Shown here piece after piece: positions 18,667 through 38,400 of a stretch of DNA of 64,000 nt. The translations under genes were made by a program, and so were the position numbers. Source of the DNA: Enterobacter sp. RHBSTW-00175 (GTDB taxonomy: Bacteria > Pseudomonadota > Gammaproteobacteria > Enterobacterales > Enterobacteriaceae); the NCBI RefSeq assembly GCF_013927005.1, contig NZ_CP055930.1:3906001-3970000 (forward strand), in the 5' to 3' direction. The first letter of the stretch is position 1. Every line of letters starts with the position of its first letter. The notes under the pieces are model-generated. The model saw nothing but the letters and a program-made list of their open reading frames with translations, did not search any database and was not told the origin of the DNA.

Positions 18667-19743
18667 CTAGGACTCGCTCTCCTTGGAGTCTGAGCGGCGC
18701 TGCTCGATCCGCAACTGCGCCCTCTGCGTCGCCTGGTGCAGCCGCTGCGCCAAGACGGCGCGCGGCGGCAAGGTAGTCAGGTACTCGGCGACGTGAATAC
18801 CGGACTTGTCCAACTCCAGCAACTCGATCTGCTCGGACTTCTTGCCAGTGCAGAGGATGATCCCCAGAGGCGAGGCTTCTTCCGGCTCCCGTTCATGCTT
18901 GTCGAGCCAGCGAAGGTAAAGCTCCATCTGCCCCTTGTAGGCCGCCTTGAACTCGCCGATCTTCAACTCCACCGCCACCAGCCGCCGCAGCTTGCGGTTG
19001 TAGAACAGCAGATCAAGGTGGAAATCCTCGTCGTCGATCTGGATGCGCTTTTGCCGGGCCAGGAAGGAAAAGCCCGCGCCCAGTTCCAGTAGGAAGGATT
19101 CCATTTCGCGGATGATCGCCGCCTCCAGGTCGCCTTCCTGCCAGGTATCCCGTAGCCCCAGGAAGTCGAGGATGTACGGGTCGCGCATGACCAGCGCCGG
19201 TGTCATGCGCTGCGCATCGCGCAGGGTCGCCAACTCCTGCGCAATCGTTTCGTCCGGCTTCTTGGATAGTGCCGTGCGCTCGTACAACATCGAGTCGATG
19301 CGCTCGCGCAGCGTGCGCACGCTCCAGCGTTCGGCACCGGCCATCTGCGCGTAGTAGTCCCGCTGGAGCGGTTCCTTGAGTGCCAGCAGCAGGACGAAAT
19401 GCGACCAGCTCAATTGTCGCGACAGTGTCGCGACAATTGGTTCGTCAGGGAACGTGGCGGCGAACTTGACCATCCGGCGCAAATTCTTTTCCCCGAAGCC
19501 GCGCCCATAGTCGCGCGCAAGCTGCTTGGCCAGGGTCGGCAGGATTTCTTCGCCGTACCCGGCCCGCTGTCCGGCCAGCACCTCCGTATGGATGCGTTGG
19601 CCGATGCGCCAGAACAGCATGGTCAACTCCGCATTGACCGTCGAGGCGACGTGCTGGCGCGATGCTTCGATCAGTGCCCGAATATCCCCCAGCAGCGCCG
19701 TTGGCGCTGCGGTTGATGTGATGGATGCCTTGCGCTTGCTCAT
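18667..19743 (-). CDS. DUF1016/YhcG-like PDDEXK nuclease
   Basis: A 358-residue protein. The N-terminal part (about 20-160) is the DUF1016 winged-helix region with L-F-W-R-I-G-Q-R-I and the Y-G-R-G-F-G-E-K-N-L-R-R-M motif. The C-terminal part is a PDDEXK nuclease with Asp244 in F-H-L-D-L-L-F-Y and Glu259-x-Lys261 in V-A-V-E-L-K-I-G. YhcG-family proteins are found near mobile elements and restriction or defence genes; the substrate is not settled. ATG 19743 overlaps the integrase stop by 4 bp (ATGA), so the nuclease is translated from the integrase message. Confidence 0.85.
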   Translation of the reverse strand: MSKRKASITSTAAPTALLGDIRALIEASRQHVASTVNAELTMLFWRIGQRIHTEVLAGQRAGYGEEILPTLAKQLARDYGRGFGEKNLRRMVKFAATFPDEPIVATLSRQLSWSHFVLLLALKEPLQRDYYAQMAGAERWSVRTLRERIDSMLYERTALSKKPDETIAQELATLRDAQRMTPALVMRDPYILDFLGLRDTWQEGDLEAAIIREMESFLLELGAGFSFLARQKRIQIDDEDFHLDLLFYNRKLRRLVAVELKIGEFKAAYKGQMELYLRWLDKHEREPEEASPLGIILCTGKKSEQIELLELDKSGIHVAEYLTTLPPRAVLAQRLHQATQRAQLRIEQRRSDSKESES

Positions 19744-20939
19744 GCCAGGGCCTCCGTTGGTTGCCGCACGCCCGTGATGGCCTGTCGCCGGCTCGCCACC
19801 AGTTCGGCCGCTTCCCGCACTGGTTTGTCCTCGGTGTGGACGTAGTGCATGAACATCGCCACGGTCTTGTGGCCCGTCAGCTTCATGCCTACCTTGGTCG
19901 GGACGCCCGAATTGGCAATGTCGGTTGTCGAGCGATGGCGGATGCCATGCGTACCGACGTGCGGCACACCGGCCGCCTTGAGCGCGCGCTTCCAACCGCC
20001 ATAGTGTTCGCCGTGGGTCATGTGTTTGGCCGGGTCGTTGGGCGACGGCAGGACGTAGGGGCAACCCTCCAGGCGCGGTGCCGTGGAAAGCAGGCGGTAG
20101 GCTTCCTCGCTCATGGGCTTGGAAATGCCGCCGGTCTTGCTGTCGGGCCAGACAACCCGGCGCTTCTCCAGATCAACCCAATCCCATTCCAGCGGGCAGA
20201 TTTCAGAGCGCCGGGCCGCGAACTCGAATTGCAACCGGATCGCCAACGGAATGACGTAGTTCTCCAGTCCTTCCGCCTCCAGATGCTCCAGGTGGCGAAA
20301 GATCCGCACCAGTTCATCATCCACGATGAGGCGGGTCTCCTTGCCCGGCGGGTACATCGGGACGTGGCGGCACGGGTTCGTGCCGTCAGGACGCAGTCCC
20401 CACACCTCGGCCATGTTGAACATCTTGCGCAGCACACCGAATGTGCGATTGGCCTCGGCTGGCTTGTAGGCCAGCTTCTTCATCAGCGCGGCCACGTCAG
20501 GACGCCTAACGTCTTGTACCTTCATGCGCCCCATGATGGGGACTATGCAGCGGTCAATAACGCCCTGGTAGCCACGCTGGGTGCTGGGCTTGTTGCGCTG
20601 CTTGGAATAGTCCTCCATGAAGGTAGAGCAATACTCCTTCATGGTCGGCGCCTTGCGGGCGGCGGCCTTGGCCGCGCTCGGGTCGCCGCCCTTGCGCACT
20701 TCGGCCAGCCACTCCTGCGCCATGAAGCGGGCCTGTTCGACGGTCAGTTCGCCAAACTGGCCCAAGGCAGGCTTGCGGCGCTCGCCAGCGTTCGTGCGGT
20801 ACTGAAGCATAAACACCCGGCGGCCTGCTGGGGTAATCTTGCATAGGAAGCCAGGCACCACGGTATCCCGCAGTTCGACTGCCTGCGCTTGGGGTTGCGC
20901 CGACTCCACGGCGGTCTTGGTGAGCTTGATTCTTGCCAT
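19740..20939 (-). CDS. int: Tyrosine site-specific integrase of the ICE
   Basis: A 399-residue phage-type integrase. It has an N-terminal DUF4102-like arm domain (1-90), a core-binding domain (100-185) and the catalytic domain. The catalytic residues are visible: Arg244 in A-A-R-R-S-E-I, His331 and Arg334 in T-H-G-I-R-H, His357 in T-G-H-K and Tyr366 in F-M-H-Y. It should integrate and excise the ICE by recombination at att sites. It is transcribed into the element from its end, the usual place, and its start is about 170 bp from the phage junction. The gene is translationally coupled to the DUF1016 nuclease. Confidence 0.92.
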   Translation of the reverse strand: MARIKLTKTAVESAQPQAQAVELRDTVVPGFLCKITPAGRRVFMLQYRTNAGERRKPALGQFGELTVEQARFMAQEWLAEVRKGGDPSAAKAAARKAPTMKEYCSTFMEDYSKQRNKPSTQRGYQGVIDRCIVPIMGRMKVQDVRRPDVAALMKKLAYKPAEANRTFGVLRKMFNMAEVWGLRPDGTNPCRHVPMYPPGKETRLIVDDELVRIFRHLEHLEAEGLENYVIPLAIRLQFEFAARRSEICPLEWDWVDLEKRRVVWPDSKTGGISKPMSEEAYRLLSTAPRLEGCPYVLPSPNDPAKHMTHGEHYGGWKRALKAAGVPHVGTHGIRHRSTTDIANSGVPTKVGMKLTGHKTVAMFMHYVHTEDKPVREAAELVASRRQAITGVRQPTEALA

Positions 20940-25440: not shown

Positions 25441-26274
25441 TTAACTGGCGGCTGACATGGCCTGGGTTCGGTATTGTACCGGACTCAGGCCGTTTAGTTT
25501 TAGCTTGATTCGTTCGTTGTTGTAGTAGTGGATATACTCTTCCACCGTTTTTCGTAGATGGTCTGTATTTTCAAACTCTTCGTGGTACCAACATTCTGTT
25601 TTCAGCAGACCAAAAAAATTTTCTATCACTGCATTGTCCAGACAGTTCCCTTTGCGCGACATGCTTTGTTCTATGCCTTTAGCTTTAAGTTTCTCCTGAT
25701 ACCGTGCCATCTGATACTGCCAACCCTGATCAGAGTGCAGTACCGGTCTGTCACCCGGTTTCAGCCTCTTGACGGCTTTGCTGAGCATGTTTTCGACCAG
25801 ATTCATTCCCGGATGCGTCGTCATATTCCAGGCTATTATCTCGCTGTTATACAGATCAAGCACTGGTGACAGATACAGCTTTGTCCCTTTTACGTTGAAC
25901 TCTGTCACATCCGTGACCCATTTCTGGTTTGGACTGCTGGCCTTAAAATCACGTGCAAGGGTATTTGGCGCTACTTTACCGTAGGTGCCTTTGTATGACT
26001 GATACTTTTTGCTTCTCAGGCATGAGGCCAGCCCCATCTTGCGCATCAGTTTCCGTACTGTTTTATGATTAATGCCATAGCCTTCATTACGCAACGCCAG
26101 GGTAATGCGCCGGTAACCATATCGTCCTTTATGATAGTGGAACAGTGCGGCTATTCTTTGCTGTTCGCCCTCATAGCGCTCTCCACGGCTATCTGCTTTG
26201 ACATGCCAGTAGTACGTGCTGCGAGGTAATCCTGCTATATGAAGCAGCATTCTCAGGTTATGGTTTCGCCTCAA
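25441..26274 (-). CDS. IS3-family transposase OrfB (DDE catalytic subunit)
   Basis: A 277-residue protein with the HTH_21 and integrase core domains. The DDE residues lie in V-T-D-V-T-E-F (first D), L-H-S-D-Q-G-W-Q-Y (second D) and A-V-I-E-N-F-F-G-L-L-K-T-E (E). The length and K-S-K-K-Y-Q-S-Y-K-G-type segment match the IS150 group. It is normally made as a frameshifted OrfAB fusion with the upstream OrfA. The element is reported as intact; stop 26283 of OrfA and start at 26274 are 9 bp apart. Confidence 0.92.
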   Translation of the reverse strand: MRRNHNLRMLLHIAGLPRSTYYWHVKADSRGERYEGEQQRIAALFHYHKGRYGYRRITLALRNEGYGINHKTVRKLMRKMGLASCLRSKKYQSYKGTYGKVAPNTLARDFKASSPNQKWVTDVTEFNVKGTKLYLSPVLDLYNSEIIAWNMTTHPGMNLVENMLSKAVKRLKPGDRPVLHSDQGWQYQMARYQEKLKAKGIEQSMSRKGNCLDNAVIENFFGLLKTECWYHEEFENTDHLRKTVEEYIHYYNNERIKLKLNGLSPVQYRTQAMSAAS

Positions 26275-26282
26275 TTCGGTAA

Positions 26283-26798
26283 TTATTTTTGCTTTGTCTT
26301 CTGCTTTTCCCGAATCAAGGCCTGAAGCTTTTTTAGGTAGGCATTCTCAACACGCAGGTATTCAAGTTCTTCCTCAGCGTTCTGGAACGCTGGACGGGGA
26401 TTATTAAGTTCTTTATCTGAAGTTTCGTTCTTCCCTGACTTCATCTGGCGTCCTCTGGGTTTATCCTGTAGGGCAATGATACCGCCAGTACGGTAAAGAC
26501 GCTCCCATTTGCTGACAGTACAAGCGGCTGCAATACGAAACTCCGCCGCAGCTTTCCGGGATGATTTGTTGTGTTGCTGCATCCAGAGCACGACAGACTC
26601 TTTAAACTCGGCAGAGTAAGCCCTGGTAGGAATGGTAAAACTGTCCATCCCATTCACTTTCCAGTGCTCAGTCCAGCGTCTGACCGCTCCGTGATCAACG
26701 CCGAACAACCGCGCTGTTTTCTTTGCACCATCACTGCTGAACAGATAGTGGAGTACGACTTGCTGCTTGAATTCAGGTGAGTATTTTTTTCTGCCCAT
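26283..26798 (-). CDS. IS3-family OrfA (DNA-binding subunit)
   Basis: A 171-residue protein with two helix-turn-helix regions, K-Y-S-P-E-F-K-Q-Q-V-V-L-H-Y-L (6-20) and a second one near Y-S-A-E-F-K-E-S-V-V-L-W-M, each followed by a G-A-V-R-R-W or A-C-T-V-S-K-W recognition helix. A leucine-zipper-like E-E-E-L-E-Y-L-R-V-E-N-A-Y-L-K-K-L lies near the end. It binds the IS ends and, by a -1 frameshift near its A-rich tail, extends into OrfB. Confidence 0.9.
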   Translation of the reverse strand: MGRKKYSPEFKQQVVLHYLFSSDGAKKTARLFGVDHGAVRRWTEHWKVNGMDSFTIPTRAYSAEFKESVVLWMQQHNKSSRKAAAEFRIAAACTVSKWERLYRTGGIIALQDKPRGRQMKSGKNETSDKELNNPRPAFQNAEEELEYLRVENAYLKKLQALIREKQKTKQK

Positions 26799-29800: not shown

Positions 29801-31030
29801 AACAGCGCTGATATCACCAGTTTGCAGCAGGTTGTAACGGACACCACTTCGTCTATGGCATCCCGCCTGGATGAGCTGGGAGCCAGAACCGATACGGCAA
29901 ATGGTGGCATCCAGAACAACGCGATAGCGCTTATCACCAGTACGCTTGCTCAGGTGAATCAGCGAATGACCCTCAGCGTGCAGTACGGTGATAATAAGGC
30001 TGGTATTCAGCGGGTTGATAATGTCATGGCTGATGCCAGTAAGGCCGTTGCCGAATCGCTGAAAACGCTGGACTCAAGTGCTGGCGGGAACACTGCGAAC
30101 GTGACGGATTTCGCCAAAACCATGGCGGACTTCTCTCAGGCATCAGCCACACAGATCAACTCGCTTAAGGTCACGGTAAACGGCCAGACTGCCGCTATTG
30201 TCCAGAACGCGCAGGTGTCGGCAGATATCAATAACAACCTGAATGCGATGTACAGCATCAAGGTCGCTGTTGATTCTAATGGTAACCAGTACGCGGCAGG
30301 GATGGGGATTGGTGTTCAGAACACGCCATCGGGAATGCAGACGCAGGTGCTCTTCCTGGCTGACCGCTTCGCGGTGATGACCCAGGCGGGCGGAACCGTG
30401 ACTCTGCCGTTTGTTATCCAGAATGGACAGGCTTTCTTTAACGATGCATTTTTCCGCGATGCCAGTATTCAGTTCGGGAAAATCACCGATTCACTTAAAT
30501 CGGATAACTTCGTTACTGGTTCGAATGGGGCTGGATGGAATCTGCCGAAAAGCGGTAATGCCGAGCTGAATAACGTCACGATCCGGGGCGCGGTATACGC
30601 CAGCGGTGGCAGCTTTAAAGGCACGGTAGAGGCGACCACTTTTGTCGGTGATATTGCCAACGTGGGGATTGGCAGTGACGCTAATATTTCCGGCGGCGGG
30701 GTTGCGACACGAACAATCACGTTTACTGATTCCTCATCATCAGCACTCAGTAAATCAGCACTTCTTGAGTCGCTGATTTTTGTTTCTTCTTTGTCTGGCA
30801 CTACAACGGTCTCCATCACTCTCAGCATCAACGGCAACACGCGCGATTTGGGCACAATCAATGTGCCTGCCGGGACAGGCGGGCTCTGGATGACCGTAAG
30901 ACATGCAGTGAGGGGGATTACCTCAGCCACTGTAACCGGGACCATAACGGTTACCGGAACAGGAACGGCAAGTAAGACCATATCATCCCCGACTTTAACT
31001 ATTACTCGCGGTACCGGCTCATTTGCCTGA
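26879..31030 (+). CDS. Phage host specificity protein, lambda gpJ family
   Basis: A 1383-residue central tail tip/receptor-binding protein, longer than lambda gpJ (1132). The N-terminal L-K-G-R-K-G-G-S...Q-S-V-A-K-A-K-I-L-V-A-L-G-E-G-E-F is typical of the family. The region from about 640 has fibronectin type III-like repeats, and 850-1150 is an Ala/Asn/Thr-rich heptad-like coil. The C-terminal 200 residues are probably the variable receptor-binding part. ATG at 26879 is used because the frame upstream runs into the IS. A strong terminator follows (31057-31078). Confidence 0.92.
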   Translation: MATDKVLKGRKGGSSSSRTPTEQPDDLQSVAKAKILVALGEGEFAGQLTGKDIYLDGTALENADGSQNFSGVTWEFRAGTQAQKYIQGIPGTENEISVGTEVSSATAWTRTFTNTQLSAVRLRLKWPSLFKQEDDGDLVGYSVNYAIDLQTDGGTWQTVLNTSVTGKTTSGYERSHRIDLPQAGSTWTIRLRKITSDANSAKIGDTMTLQSFTEVIDAKLRYPNTALLYIEFDSSQFNGSIPQISCEPRGRVIRVPDTYDPETRTYSGTWTGAFKWAWTDNPAWIFYDLVVSDRFGLGHRLTAANIDKWALYQVAQYCDQMVPDGKGGNGTEPRYTCNVYIQDRNDAYTVLRDFAAIFRGMTYWGGDQIVALADMPRDVDYSYTRANVVGGRFTYSSSTTKTRYTTALVSWSDPGNAYADAMEPVFEQALVARYGFNQLEMTAIGCTRQSEANRKGRWGILTNNKDRVVSFDVGLDGNIPQPGYIIAVADELLSGKVMGGRISAVNGRVIKLDRVADAAAGDRLILNLPSGASQSRTIQAVNGESVTVTTAYSETPQAEAVWVVESDELYAQQYRVVSVSDNDDGTFSITGAWHDPDKYARIDTGAIIDQRPVSVIPPGNQSPPANIVISSFSVVQQNISVETMRVSWDQAQNAIAYEAQWRRNDGNWVNVPRSSTTSFDVPGIYAGRYLVRVRAINASEISSGWGYSEEKTLTGKVGNPPKPVGFTASENVVFGIELNWGFPANTGDTLKTEIQYSLTGIDDDAILLADVPYPQRKYQQMGLKTGQVFWFRAQLVDRTGNESGYTEFVRGQASVDVSDITDAILENIKGSESFKDLIEDAVANSDKVAELTDAIKENADGLAAAVGSNKQTAEAIIGNALAIADVVVRQSAQQGANTATFEQLREVIATETEARVTDVTRLEAETADNAAGITEVRQALSDETQARATAVDQLTAATQVISDKADAAGQASSQNSADITSLQQVVTDTTSSMASRLDELGARTDTANGGIQNNAIALITSTLAQVNQRMTLSVQYGDNKAGIQRVDNVMADASKAVAESLKTLDSSAGGNTANVTDFAKTMADFSQASATQINSLKVTVNGQTAAIVQNAQVSADINNNLNAMYSIKVAVDSNGNQYAAGMGIGVQNTPSGMQTQVLFLADRFAVMTQAGGTVTLPFVIQNGQAFFNDAFFRDASIQFGKITDSLKSDNFVTGSNGAGWNLPKSGNAELNNVTIRGAVYASGGSFKGTVEATTFVGDIANVGIGSDANISGGGVATRTITFTDSSSSALSKSALLESLIFVSSLSGTTTVSITLSINGNTRDLGTINVPAGTGGLWMTVRHAVRGITSATVTGTITVTGTGTASKTISSPTLTITRGTGSFA

Positions 31031-31056
31031 CCTTCCTGATATTCAACCTGACTTAT

Positions 31057-31078
31057 AACCCGCTTCGGCGGGTTTTTT
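31057..31078 (+). terminator. Intrinsic terminator after gpJ
   Basis: The arms ACCCGC and GCGGGT with a TTCG loop are followed by a T6 run. It sits directly after the J stop codon and before the fibre gene. Confidence 0.85.
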
Positions 31079-31094
31079 ATTGCGTGGAGAAAAT

Positions 31095-32411
31095 ATGATT
31101 TACACAACAGGCACGATTGCAGTCAGCGGCAATACGCTTACCGGAACGGGTACAGCCTTTAATGCTGCGGGCTCACTTATCCGCAATGGATGCACAGTCA
31201 TCGCGCTGACCAGTCCCGCTCAGGTATTCCAGATTACTGCTATAGGCGGGGCAACCAGTCTCACCGTGACACCTGCGGCAAGTCCTGCCATCCCTGCGGG
31301 AACGAAGTATTCAATCTTGCTGAGCGACAGTCTGAGTGTGGATGGCCTGGCGCAGGACATTGCTGAAACGTTCACGATGTACCAGCGTTACATGAGCGGC
31401 TTCGCTGATGTGATGAACGGTACTACAGACGTCACCATCACGATTAACGGCGTGTCCGTCACGGTACCGGGTCAGAAATCACTGGCGAAGAAAGGGGCAA
31501 ACAGCGACATCACCAGCCTTTCCGGGCTGACTACCGCGCTCAGCGTTGGCCAGGGTGGTACTGGTGCGAAAACCGCCGCAGATGCTCGCACAAACCTTGG
31601 TTTAGGAAGTGCTGCAACTGCTGATGTCCAGACAAGTGCATCAGACAGCACGACCGGAAGGGCTATGTTGAATGGTGCATTCGGGTTGGGAGGTGATAGC
31701 CTTGCTTATCCCATTGATGACACAGCAAGTCATTCAAGACCAAGTGGACTCTATAACATTGTTAGTGGCTACATGCCGCAGATCGGCCTCACCGCAGATT
31801 TTACCTATCTCATTATTCAGCGAGGGCTTCGGGCAACAAGGATATTGCAGTCTTATATCAACCGAAGAACGTTCTTCAGTTACAGCAACGGAGCATCCTG
31901 GACCTACCATGAAGCGTATACAACGGGTAATACCACAAAGGCCAGTGACGGCACGCTCAAGGCCGCATCACCGGTAGCCCGTATCGTGAAGTCACAGGAA
32001 GAAAATCAGCGTACTGATATTGCCGAAGACGGCTTCTCCTGGTGTGGTTGCGCCACGGCGAACGAGGAGGCTGAGGGTATTCACGTAAGCCGCATCGATG
32101 TCGGTGTTTATACGCTGACTGGCTCTGCCGGTCTGGCATCTTCTGGCTGGCAGCTCTTGCCGCCTATGGACCCGGGCGGAATGGGTGAACTCGGTATTGT
32201 AGAGGCTGAGCAAGGCGATAGCGGGGAGCTGATAATCCGCCTGTTTAAACGTAAATATATCTTAAGTGACGATGGGGAAATGGTGAAAACGAAGGGGGCT
32301 CCAATCGACGTTCCGCTGAACAGCTGGATCGATGTGCGCCTTGATATGCCTGAAGACAGCATCTGGAAAATGAAAGTGAATGCTGCCGTACAGGATGCAT
32401 CGGGGGATTAA
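31095..32411 (+). CDS. Phage tail fibre, currently expressed version of an invertible 3' end
   Basis: A 438-residue fibre. Residues 1-160 are a conserved shaft with T-G-T-I-A-V-S-G-N-T-L-T-G-T-G-T and repeats such as V-G-Q-G-G-T-G-A-K-T-A-A-D-A-R-T-N. At N167-L-G-L-G-S-A173 the coding sequence crosses a hix-like recombination site (31585-31610). Everything after it (residues about 170-438) lies inside the invertible segment. The last 115 residues form a Trp-containing head that may bind the receptor, ending M-K-V-N-A-A-V-Q-D-A-S-G-D. After inversion the same shaft would be fused to the silent S74-type end at 33110-32454. Confidence 0.85.
   Translation: MIYTTGTIAVSGNTLTGTGTAFNAAGSLIRNGCTVIALTSPAQVFQITAIGGATSLTVTPAASPAIPAGTKYSILLSDSLSVDGLAQDIAETFTMYQRYMSGFADVMNGTTDVTITINGVSVTVPGQKSLAKKGANSDITSLSGLTTALSVGQGGTGAKTAADARTNLGLGSAATADVQTSASDSTTGRAMLNGAFGLGGDSLAYPIDDTASHSRPSGLYNIVSGYMPQIGLTADFTYLIIQRGLRATRILQSYINRRTFFSYSNGASWTYHEAYTTGNTTKASDGTLKAASPVARIVKSQEENQRTDIAEDGFSWCGCATANEEAEGIHVSRIDVGVYTLTGSAGLASSGWQLLPPMDPGGMGELGIVEAEQGDSGELIIRLFKRKYILSDDGEMVKTKGAPIDVPLNSWIDVRLDMPEDSIWKMKVNAAVQDASGD
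31585..31610 (-). repeat. hix/gix-like inversion site, left
   Basis: Read on the minus strand the sequence begins ACTTCCTAAACC, then central AA, then GGTTTGTGCGAG. It lies inside the tail fibre gene at codons for N-L-G-L-G-S. The first 14 bases plus GTTT are shared with the site at 33099-33124, which is in the opposite orientation. Confidence 0.75.
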
Positions 32412-33117
32412 TGTCTCAAACACCAGGCAGAGCGATCTGCCTGGTGAGCACTTTTATGGTTTTTGTGTATTAAGCAGCTGTTTCAACGCTACCAGTTCCC
32501 CCTGCATATGCTGGATAGTCAGTGTCAGTTTTGCGATAGCAGCCATTGGGTCAAGATAGTACATGCCTGAGAGATCATCGCTTTCGAGGTCAACCCCGGC
32601 AGGCAGGCCAGTACCTTTCACAACCTCTGGGGAGACCTCCTTCATGTCGTTAGCGATGAAGCCGAGCTGCCCCAGTTTCTTATCGAGAACGCCCCTGGCT
32701 TTCATATCGAAGAGAGCAACCTGCCATCTGCTCACTTCATCTGCTGCCTTTTCCCGGTCGGTCTGATAGACGATATTCTCTTTCAGCTCCCGGTCCGATG
32801 AAGTAACGGTGATCGCACCAACGTCACTGGTGTCGACATAAAGACGCATAGCCCCACTGGTCCAGAGCATGTTAAACGCGCTCGCGCTGTAACTGCCTTT
32901 TGTCCCGGAACGACACTGATAACCGCCTTCAACCTGAAGTATGCCCGTTCCACCACCTGTACCACCTTTCAGTTCCAGGCTTGTGGCTCCTGAGGCCCAT
33001 AGTCGCGCAGAATAATCGTTACTGGTAGAGCCGTAATGAAAATCGAGGTATGGCGATGCGGCCGATAATTCGATGGAGGAAAAGGTCGGTGAATCAGCAC
33101 TTCCTAAACCAACGTTT
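31592..33117. mobile_element. Invertible segment of about 1.5 kb carrying two fibre 3' ends
   Basis: Inverted hix-like sites bound two coding regions that converge at a central terminator: the expressed fibre end (plus strand) and the silent fibre end (minus strand). A Gin/Hin-type invertase gene lies immediately outside. This is the organisation of the Mu G-segment and the P1 C-segment. Coordinates mark the crossover regions to within a few bases. Confidence 0.8.
32421..32446. terminator. Bidirectional hairpin between convergent fibre ends
   Basis: An 11-bp perfect stem CACCAGGCAGA/TCTGCCTGGTG with a GCGA loop lies between the fibre stops at 32411 and 32454. It should end whichever fibre version is in the expressed orientation. 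Confidence 0.7.
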
Positions 33118-33194
33118 TTGATAATGCCTTTTGAATTTGCTTCCGATAACGTCACCGGGATTGTTTGAATAAAAAGGTTACTGGAAACATGCAA
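32454..33194 (-). CDS. Silent alternative tail fibre end with peptidase S74 chaperone domain
   Basis: A 246-residue open frame. Its only useful part starts at the right hix-like site, where N27-V-G-L-G-S-A33 corresponds to N-L-G-L-G-S-A of the expressed fibre. Residues 34-125 look like a beta-rich fibre head. From 130 the S74 intramolecular chaperone domain has T-S-S-D-R-E-L-K-E-N-I (catalytic Ser132/133 and Lys138), then M-A-A-I-A-K-L and a terminal coiled coil. The part upstream of the site (1-28) overlaps the invertase start and is probably a remnant. The frame has no evident promoter here and becomes the 3' end of the fibre gene after inversion. Confidence 0.75.
   Translation of the reverse strand: MHVSSNLFIQTIPVTLSEANSKGIIKNVGLGSADSPTFSSIELSAASPYLDFHYGSTSNDYSARLWASGATSLELKGGTGGGTGILQVEGGYQCRSGTKGSYSASAFNMLWTSGAMRLYVDTSDVGAITVTSSDRELKENIVYQTDREKAADEVSRWQVALFDMKARGVLDKKLGQLGFIANDMKEVSPEVVKGTGLPAGVDLESDDLSGMYYLDPMAAIAKLTLTIQHMQGELVALKQLLNTQKP
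33099..33124 (+). repeat. hix/gix-like inversion site, right
   Basis: ACTTCCTAAACC, central AA, CGTTTTTGATAA. It differs from the Salmonella hixL site mainly in the left half; the right half is nearly the same as GGTTTTTGATAA. It is inverted relative to 31585-31610 and lies 65 bp before the invertase start. Confidence 0.8.
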
Positions 33195-33743
33195 ATAGGA
33201 TATGTCAGGGTGTCAACAAATGACCAGAACACGGATCTTCAGCGGCAGGCACTTGAACGCGCAGGATGTGAACAGATTTTCAAAGAAAAAATGAGCGGCA
33301 CAGTGGCGAACAGACCAGCACTGAGAAAGCTCCTCAAAGCTCTTAATGAGGGGGACACGCTGGTGGTCTGGAAACTCGACCGTCTCGGCCGCAGTATGCG
33401 CAATCTGGTATTGCTGGTGGATGAACTGCGCCTGCGTGGGATCCACTTCAAGAGCCTCACTGACAGCATTGATACTTCAAGCCCAATGGGGCGTTTCATA
33501 TTTCATATCATGTCAGCCCTAGCTGAAATGGAAAGAGAACTGATCGTGGAGCGTACCCGTGCAGGTCTGGCAGTTGCGAGGGCGCAGGGAAGGATAGGGG
33601 GAAGGCGTTCTAAGCTATCATCGGAACAGTGGGCTCAGGCTGGAAGGCTCATAGCAAATGGTATAGACAGGAAGCAGGTTGCGATCATCTATGATGTTGC
33701 AGTTTGCACTCTGTACAAGAAATTTCCGGCAGGTGGAAAATAA
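33189..33743 (+). CDS. pin: Serine recombinase, Gin/Hin/Pin-type DNA invertase
   Basis: A 184-residue invertase. The catalytic Ser9 is in Y-V-R-V-S-T-N-D-Q, with L-D-R-L-G-R-S at about 64-70, a central E-M-E-R-E-L-I-V-E-R-T helix and a C-terminal helix-turn-helix (R-I-G-G-R-R-S-K-L...A-I-I-Y-D-V-A). The size and motifs match DNA invertases that use hix/gix sites. ATG at 33189 is used rather than the upstream in-frame start, which belongs to the S74 end. It should flip the fibre segment beside it, with help from Fis at an enhancer usually located inside the invertase gene. It is read away from the segment. Confidence 0.9.
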   Translation: MQIGYVRVSTNDQNTDLQRQALERAGCEQIFKEKMSGTVANRPALRKLLKALNEGDTLVVWKLDRLGRSMRNLVLLVDELRLRGIHFKSLTDSIDTSSPMGRFIFHIMSALAEMERELIVERTRAGLAVARAQGRIGGRRSKLSSEQWAQAGRLIANGIDRKQVAIIYDVAVCTLYKKFPAGGK

Positions 33744-37114: not shown

Positions 37115-38400
37115 GTGTACGGTCCGGGGACATGGTAGACAGGTGTTCGGGGACATGGTGAACACTTTTTAACATCCTTTACCCATGGTGATCGACTTTT
37201 TCTTCAGGTCGATCACCCCCACTTTCGTGCTGTACCACCACACCTCGTAGCTGCCGTCTTCCTGCATCTCCTTCAGCCCGACCCGTTCTCCCCTGAACGC
37301 CTTGCCTGCGCTCAGACTTACCCCTTTCACGCTCAGCTTTCCGCTGATATCCACTTTCCTGACCATCACGCCCTCGTCGTATTCCGGGGGCGTGGTGTTG
37401 CCGCTGTACTGCCGCTCTGACGGCTTATACCGCGACCCCGGTACCGCCATATCCAGCGCCTCATGCGGGCGTTCAAGGTTATAGACTGTCCGCCAGTGGT
37501 CGAAGGCGCGCTGCAGTTCGCCCCCGCTCGCGAACCACTTCCCCTGCAGCACTTCTGCCTTCAGGCTCCGGTGAAAACGCTCCAGCTTACCCTGCGTCTG
37601 CGGATGATACGGCCGGGAGTGCCCCACCCGGATACCCAGACGCATCAGCCACAGCTCCAGCGCCGTCCAGGTGCCGGTGGTGTCTCCCCACGGAGAACCG
37701 TTGTCCATCGTCATCCGGTCCGGCAGGCCGTAGCGCTCAAACACGCTGACCAGCTGCTGCTGCACGGTCTCGCGCCGTTCATCGGTACAGTGCGCCAGGC
37801 ACAGGGAAAATCGGGAGTGGTCGTCCAGCAGGGTGAGCGGATGGCAGCGGCCGCCTCCAAAGGGAAAGTGGCCCTTAAAATCCATCTGCCAGAGGCGGTT
37901 CGGCGCGTCATGTTCGAACCGTCCCGTGGCGGGAATGCCCGGTGAAGTGCCCGGCAGCAGACCGTGACGGGCCATGAGGTTATGGACGGTGCTGAAGGCG
38001 GGCATGGTGTGCCCCTGGTCTTCCAGCCAGCGCTTTATCTTGCGTGCGCCCCAGCGTTCATGGCGGTCATGCGCCATACGCAGCAGGGCAGTGATGTCGT
38101 CAGATGAGCGGTTCGGGGAATGGTGCGGTATGCGCGGGCGGTCCTGAAGGCCGGAGGCCCCTTCCTCCGCCCAGCGGCGAAGCCACTTATAGCCAGTGGC
38201 AGGTGAAATGCCGAAGCGACGGCAGAGGGAACGGATGTTCGCCCCGTCCTGCGAGGCGAACAAAACAAACTCGGTACGTAATGACATGGTATCTCTCGCA
38301 TCCCAGGACATAAGCGACTCCATAAACGGGTTCTTATGCCTTAGTTGTAAGTGTCTACCATGTCCCCGAACAAGTGTTCACTATGTCCCCGGACCGTACA
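37115..38400 (-). mobile_element. IS481-family insertion sequence, 1286 bp
   Basis: The tips are inverted TGTACGGTCCGGGGACAT. Each end also holds a second GGGGACAT unit farther in, so four GGGGACATxGT-type units are likely transposase sites. The target duplication is GTGGG (37110-37114 and 38401-38405). One intact transposase gene fills the element. Confidence 0.92.
37169..38311 (-). CDS. IS481-family transposase
   Basis: A 380-residue transposase. The N-terminal helix-turn-helix includes I-R-S-L-C-R-R-F-G-I-S-P-A-T-G-Y-K-W-L. The DDE core has W-Q-M-D-F-K-G (first D), M-D-N-G-S-P-W-G (second D) and G-K-L-E-R-F-H-R-S-L (E). It ends with the beta-barrel-like tail usual in this family. ATG at 38311 has GGAG upstream; starts at 38323 and 38287 are possible. 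It appears intact. Confidence 0.92.
   Translation of the reverse strand: MSWDARDTMSLRTEFVLFASQDGANIRSLCRRFGISPATGYKWLRRWAEEGASGLQDRPRIPHHSPNRSSDDITALLRMAHDRHERWGARKIKRWLEDQGHTMPAFSTVHNLMARHGLLPGTSPGIPATGRFEHDAPNRLWQMDFKGHFPFGGGRCHPLTLLDDHSRFSLCLAHCTDERRETVQQQLVSVFERYGLPDRMTMDNGSPWGDTTGTWTALELWLMRLGIRVGHSRPYHPQTQGKLERFHRSLKAEVLQGKWFASGGELQRAFDHWRTVYNLERPHEALDMAVPGSRYKPSERQYSGNTTPPEYDEGVMVRKVDISGKLSVKGVSLSAGKAFRGERVGLKEMQEDGSYEVWWYSTKVGVIDLKKKSITMGKGC

Follow-up and report, generated by a model that had tools for sequence, protein, structure and literature searches.

A tail-fibre gene, a second fibre 3' end on the opposite strand and a serine DNA invertase gene lie side by side in a 64,000-nucleotide stretch of Enterobacter sp. 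RHBSTW-00175 (contig NZ_CP055930.1, positions 3,906,001 to 3,970,000; hereafter the window), and most probably form a switch with two states, worked by site-specific inversion and carried by a lambda-like prophage, a reading to which we give a probability of about 0.92. It rests on the anatomy of the locus (Table 1), on the occurrence of both orientations among relatives, on breakpoints that fall at the sites and on an intact catalytic motif in the invertase. In the mechanism that we propose, the invertase, aided by Fis bound to an enhancer within the invertase gene, would pair two 26-bp sites and cut them at their AA core, and rotation and rejoining would flip the segment of about 1.5 kb between them (31598-33111). 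The constant base of the fibre would carry arm A, with its PF25670 end, in one state and arm B, with its S74 end, in the other, the fusion being in frame in both.

Table 1. Features of the putative inversion switch (positions in the window).
Feature	Position	Strand	Evidence or remarks
Constant N-terminal part of tail-fibre gene, up to crossover core	31095-31598	+	Open reading frame; phrog_1591 tail fibre protein
Left crossover site	31585-31610	-	26 bp, core AA on minus strand; inversion breakpoint in L076 and L040
Arm A, fibre 3' end in expressed position	31599-32411	+	Ends in PF25670 Phage_tail_C_2, E 3.5e-30
Symmetric stem-loop between convergent fibre ends	32421-32446		11-bp stem, z -4.1
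Arm B, second fibre 3' end, unexpressed in window orientation	32454-33110	-	Open reading frame
Peptidase_S74 domain of arm B	32616-32798	-	E 4.9e-8, residues 105-165; Ser-Asp-x-x-x-Lys at start
Right crossover site	33099-33124	+	26 bp, core AA; inversion breakpoint
Serine DNA invertase, Gin/Cin/Pin family	33189-33743	+	PF00239 and PF02796; phrog_125 DNA invertase
Fis-like site 1 of putative enhancer in invertase gene	33211-33225	+	One mismatch to consensus; position +23
Fis-like site 2 of putative enhancer	33259-33273	+	No mismatch; position +71; 48 bp from site 1

An earlier note on this DNA, made from the letters, had described two inverted 26-bp sites, each with the codons for G-L-G-S-A, in the fibre gene and in the opposite-strand fibre 3' end, followed after 65 bp by a Gin/Hin/Pin-type invertase. 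The sequence and the repeat analysis bear out the sites, both reading frames place the core at the same codon offset, and the family domains and position of the enzyme agree with the description, its ATG lying 65 bp past the right site. As the reverse complement of its coordinates the left site is ACTTCCTAAACCAAGGTTTGTGCGAG, and the right site is ACTTCCTAAACCAACGTTTTTGATAA; read in one sense the two are ACTTCCTAAACC-AA-GGTTTGTGCGAG and ACTTCCTAAACC-AA-CGTTTTTGATAA, with inner halves and core identical and outer halves different. When they are aligned on the core, 21 of their 26 bases agree, with bases 1 to 14 all identical. No inverted repeat in the region is longer than the one that pairs 31589-31614 with 33095-33120; it lies 4 bp further inwards than the sites and matches at 24 of its 26 bases, against best matches of 18 to 22 in 40 dinucleotide-preserving shuffles. 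Sites of the Hin/Gin/Cin type have a 12-2-12 geometry, and the window shares with these systems a pair of inverted 26-bp sites with an identical core dinucleotide; the annotated cix sites of P1 and gix sites of Mu match those of the window at 15-19 of 26 bp at best. The right half of the right site also appears close to the Salmonella hix half-site, a likeness that the earlier note had pointed out.

The strongest support for the switching that the earlier note predicted comes from close relatives, which occur in both orientations with breakpoints within the sites. Pairwise comparison of the 85 loci with both outer sites (3570 pairs) yielded 17 pairs, in 8 groups, that fit strict criteria for an inversion between collinear flanks, and 24 that satisfy those flank criteria but are alike in orientation, counts in which some pairs repeat since loci L041, L072 and L152 are one sequence. 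In the metagenomic viral contig L076 the segment of the window is turned round, with 92.0% identity along 1529 bp, between flanks that are collinear at 91.2% and 83.4%, the strand changing inside the 26-bp sites. The window's own genome holds two further switch loci, L040 and L041, one with an invertase 98% identical and the other with one 94% identical, and L040 is in the opposite state, with arm B on the constant part, arm A beside the invertase and the breakpoints in the sites. Arm B is fused in frame with the constant part in both L040 and L076; arm A is seen inverted in L076 and partly so in L040. Genome G007 has two copies, L065 and L066, that are mutually inverted despite 99.7-99.8% identity; their invertase is more distant (66%), and L066, on a 16.5-kb contig, could be the same prophage in a different form. 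The DNA between the sites was thus found in both orientations in relatives rather than in the strain's own copy. Judged from these comparisons the switch looks real, and it may operate in Enterobacter sp. RHBSTW-00175 itself.

The invertase has a resolvase N-terminal domain with the catalytic Ser9, an intact LDRLGRS motif and a C-terminal helix-turn-helix domain, and is 93% identical to Fin of Escherichia phage LLS, 75% to Cin of P1 and 74% to Gin of Mu. By consensus and position, two putative Fis sites 48 bp apart are present in the 5' part of its gene; the two sites together depart from the consensus by one mismatch. Their positions, +23 and +71, are those of the corresponding pair in cin of P1 and gin of Mu, and the P1 record annotates an enhancer at +19 to +90 of the invertase gene. 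Some 100 bp separate the right crossover site from the nearer of the two, a distance also reported for Hin (PMC3798978). The switch would probably depend on Fis.

Several observations weigh against the reading of the locus as a working switch, and some of those in its favour have limits. L040, the opposite-state locus of the same genome, belongs to a different prophage, in which 1219 of the 1527 bases of the window segment align inverted; its protein identity to the window is 94% in arm B and 77% in arm A, and about 6.5 kb (L040:3351-9894) are inserted between its arms. The other locus of the genome, L041, is in the orientation of the window. In Hin, a mismatch of core nucleotides is reported to block ligation in the inverted state (PMC4817059); all sites found within a locus share their core in 85 of 85 loci (49 GA, 36 AA), which speaks for switching, but the figure amounts to no probability because the pattern used to find sites largely restricts the core to AA or GA and the loci are kin. 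Normalised synonymous diversity over 100 distinct invertase genes is 0.50 in codons 7-30, which hold the Fis pair, and 0.79 in codons 31-181, but this dip is part of a general 5'-to-3' gradient, within which the 24-codon stretch ranks second of 146, and it therefore counts as supporting evidence only. Finally, the tape-measure frame of the window prophage has 431 codons, whereas four such frames elsewhere in the genome have 851-1163, so that the fibre may never reach a virion.

The last point also bears on the alternative that survives best, which is compatible with an inversion switch: the switch would be genuine in the family and the window copy a remnant, its fibre state frozen or unused. 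This we consider unlikely, if by no means negligible. Besides the short tape-measure frame, it is favoured by a transposase pair (rve with HTH_21, and HTH_28; 25441-26798, minus strand) between the genes for tail assembly and for the central fibre, J, and by the N-terminal tape-measure sequence not being found in the 17 kb leftward, a weak test with a query 37% identical where it matches; this copy of the prophage may make no virions. The fibre, both arms, both sites, the invertase and the Fis-site pair nevertheless all appear intact. That the host's own homologous recombination, acting on short inverted repeats, and not the invertase produced the inversions in relatives appears very improbable: the flips are known between genomes or copies, the agent itself being unobserved, but the repeat is merely about 26 bp, the Fis-site pair is retained and an invertase gene adjoins every analysed locus, although the loci were chosen for having one beside them, and the report on FRphi, a temperate phage of Enterobacter, states that switching stops and the state is locked without gin (PMC13418256). 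We expect that the invertase of the window would itself catalyse the inversion. Least credible of all is that the repeat is a shared GLGS fibre motif which constraint on the coding sequence has preserved in two homologous ends that never flip, for while the S74 and PF25670 arm profiles are alike in the 19 columns that follow the site, and site-like sequence is also present in the genome's three fixed fibre copies, with no invertase match nearby, the segment is inverted between collinear flanks in L076 and L040 and every locus keeps one core at its sites. A chance or motif-only origin of the inverted repeat was ruled out on the inverted relatives, the shuffles and the core sharing.

The whole fibre frame (31095-32411, plus strand) and the opposite fibre 3' end (open reading frame 32454-33194, minus strand) converge on the stem-loop, the arms being only 42 bp apart. 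The earlier note had the ends converge on a symmetric terminator; the convergence and the stem-loop are there, but the terminator scan does not list the stem-loop among its sites and the stem has no T-run directly after it, so that it is a putative terminator. A promoter scan of 31000-33300 gave no site. A terminator-like hairpin with a T-run, of a kind no commoner than in shuffles, stands at 31057-31074 in the gap that parts J from the fibre gene and may separate the transcription of the two.

Arm B matches Peptidase_S74, and the claim that a flip would exchange one C-terminal head for an S74-ended one is supported to that extent by the domain match; changes of receptor specificity or host range and of fibre maturation would be its expected consequences. 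Used as a profile, 11 S74 arms match the self-cleaving domain of MYRF (7dc3), the phage tail-fibre entries 8hqz, 6f45 and 8jov, and 3gud; a search with the single sequence of arm B retrieved no solved structure at E 0.01. Two structure predictions were both of low confidence (predicted local distance difference test scores of 49.6 and 55.3), and the fold of the first, the only one used for a fold search, matches 7dc3, 3gw6 and 3gud. Ser105, Asp106 and Lys110 of arm B are invariant across the 11 aligned arms (of 20 S74-class arms), and the putative catalytic Ser105 and Lys110 are five residues apart, as reported for S578/K583 of MYRF (PMC3742443) and Ser1264/Lys1269 of T5 pb1 (PMC4690869). These matches support arm B as an S74 arm, and it is predicted to cleave itself. 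An S74-class arm outside the aligned 11 (L043:8567-9643, minus strand) has Cys at the position of the catalytic serine (CDITLK) and could be a form of this self-cleaving chaperone with a Cys-Lys pair.

A profile of 19 PF25670 arms matches the solved tail fibre 7z47. At the start of this domain Ser stands five residues before Lys in 28 of 31 clusters (Ala, Ala and Thr in the other three), and 7z47 has Val at that position; in arm A the Ser/Lys stretch, at 31944-31961 of the window, has the same spacing as the S74 dyad. The C-terminal parts of the S74 and PF25670 profiles compared alone gave a probability of 0.2% (E 0.25), their best stretch being the Ser/Lys motif itself, with a score of 13.1 against 8.6-12.7 in 10 column-shuffled controls. 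The whole-arm profiles of the two kinds align nowhere beyond the 19 columns next to the crossover. PF25670 as a hidden relative of S74 is thus not supported by profile comparison, though the motif leaves it some slight likelihood. The arms fall into 51 clusters, 20 with a match to S74 and 31 with one to PF25670, classes that were assigned by motif reading and whose totals equal those of Pfam. Both arms have a class in 32 two-site loci, of which 21 combine the two kinds, 6 have PF25670 only and 5 S74 only; we do not claim the mixed pairing as a rule, about 16 being expected at random among loci that are related or repeated.

It is conceivable, if rather doubtful, that in this Enterobacter-centred family a flip alters fibre maturation besides the receptor-binding end, S74 arms cleaving off a chaperone of about 114 residues and PF25670 arms not, and that one lysogen could pool mixed fibres. 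The difference in maturation is the less sure because most PF25670 clusters keep the Ser/Lys spacing. Several prophages in the genome have near-identical fibre bases and sites with the same core; a mixed pool, if it forms, would arise within one lysogen even from a prophage with broken tail genes. More broadly, the classical switches of Mu, P1 and e14 gain a family of two- and three-armed fibre switches in prophages, in which the terminal domains of the alternative ends often differ in kind (S74 or PF25670), which makes it testable whether phase variation alters fibre maturation besides specificity. A literature search of partial coverage returned no paper combining S74 or chaperone-of-endosialidase terms with an invertase.

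The system is of a well-known kind, and its close relatives FRphi and LLS are already characterised or annotated, so that for the window locus alone our result is near to what has been published. Like the prophage of the window, FRphi is described as an Enterobacter prophage with a constant fibre base, alternative C-termini and gin downstream, although with three arms instead of two; according to its report, gin drives a three-ended fibre shufflon, long reads reveal mixed states, and just one fibre end infects the host used, via FhuA (PMC13418256). The fibre locus of FRphi is said there to lie upstream of a flagellin gene, and in 8 of our 124 loci a flagellin gene follows 1.85 kb downstream of an invertase 92-93% identical to that of the window; only four of the eight (L050, L121, L157, L183) show at least two sites, and some may duplicate each other. 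Because these flagellin-adjacent loci fit the gene order of FRphi, the window system most likely belongs to its family, a relation drawn from gene order and not from comparison with the FRphi sequence. Phage LLS (PQ299149.1) has, beside its Fin invertase, two convergent tail fibres and depositor-annotated IR-L and IR-R, but its core is GA instead of AA and its arms are different; no paper naming it was found in the literature searched.

Among the classical systems, the G segment of Mu, reported as 3 kb (PMC12529663), has the same order of fibre, convergent alternative end, segment boundary and invertase outside, but carries the assembly genes U and U' between the fibre ends where the window has 42 bp. 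The C segment of P1 likewise has cix sites and an enhancer at the same place in its invertase gene, and differs in its length of about 4.2 kb with U and U'. The P segment of e14 with PinE is also a prophage fibre segment, of 1.8 kb, inverting at repeats (CCTTCTCCCAAACCAA), but e14 is described as a cryptic prophage with tfa genes inside the segment; by the count of that report it is inverted in 33% of 562 genomes, and overproduced PinQ, from another prophage, inverts 88% and overproduced PinE 49% (PMC12529663).

Loci with an invertase at least 85% identical number 55, 40 with two sites and 15 with three (L042, L045, L051, L070, L121, L157, L159, L162, L163, L165, L168, L171, L183, L191, L194). 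Within these, AA cores are confined to six records, the group to which the window itself belongs, so that both sites there seem to have changed their core jointly. The middle sites of all 15 three-site loci carry a distinct third outer half, CCTTT, and in the G007 copies L042 and L070 the middle site is in the opposite orientation. The fibre base ahead of the site varies, matching the constant part of the window at 46-99% or not at all. A near-identity DNA search of phage, plasmid and E. coli collections returned no record covering 80% of the locus.

The constant part itself is present in six copies in the genome, the five besides that of the window being 97-99% identical. Three of the six belong to switch loci; the other three lead into arm B and have no invertase match nearby (genome G000: C1:324438, L256; C1:4269481, L258; C4:4807, L257); one of the latter is on a separate 40,364-bp contig and resembles the 324-kb copy over 3.7 kb only, at 94%. 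The insert of L040 encodes a transposase (HTH_38 and rve), a TetR regulator, a flavin oxidoreductase (Oxidored_FMN) and further open reading frames, and despite it the arms and sites of that locus are still open or present. To the left of the window prophage, positions 1-21100 form a high-G+C island that extends leftward into L270, with genes for a ParB-like protein, an SBF-type transporter, a flavin mononucleotide (FMN) reductase and a Na+/H+ antiporter, and the tyrosine integrase of this island (19740-20939, minus strand) abuts the seemingly truncated tape-measure frame. To the right of the prophage, a transposase gene with a match to the IS481-type leucine zipper occupies 37169-38323 on the minus strand.

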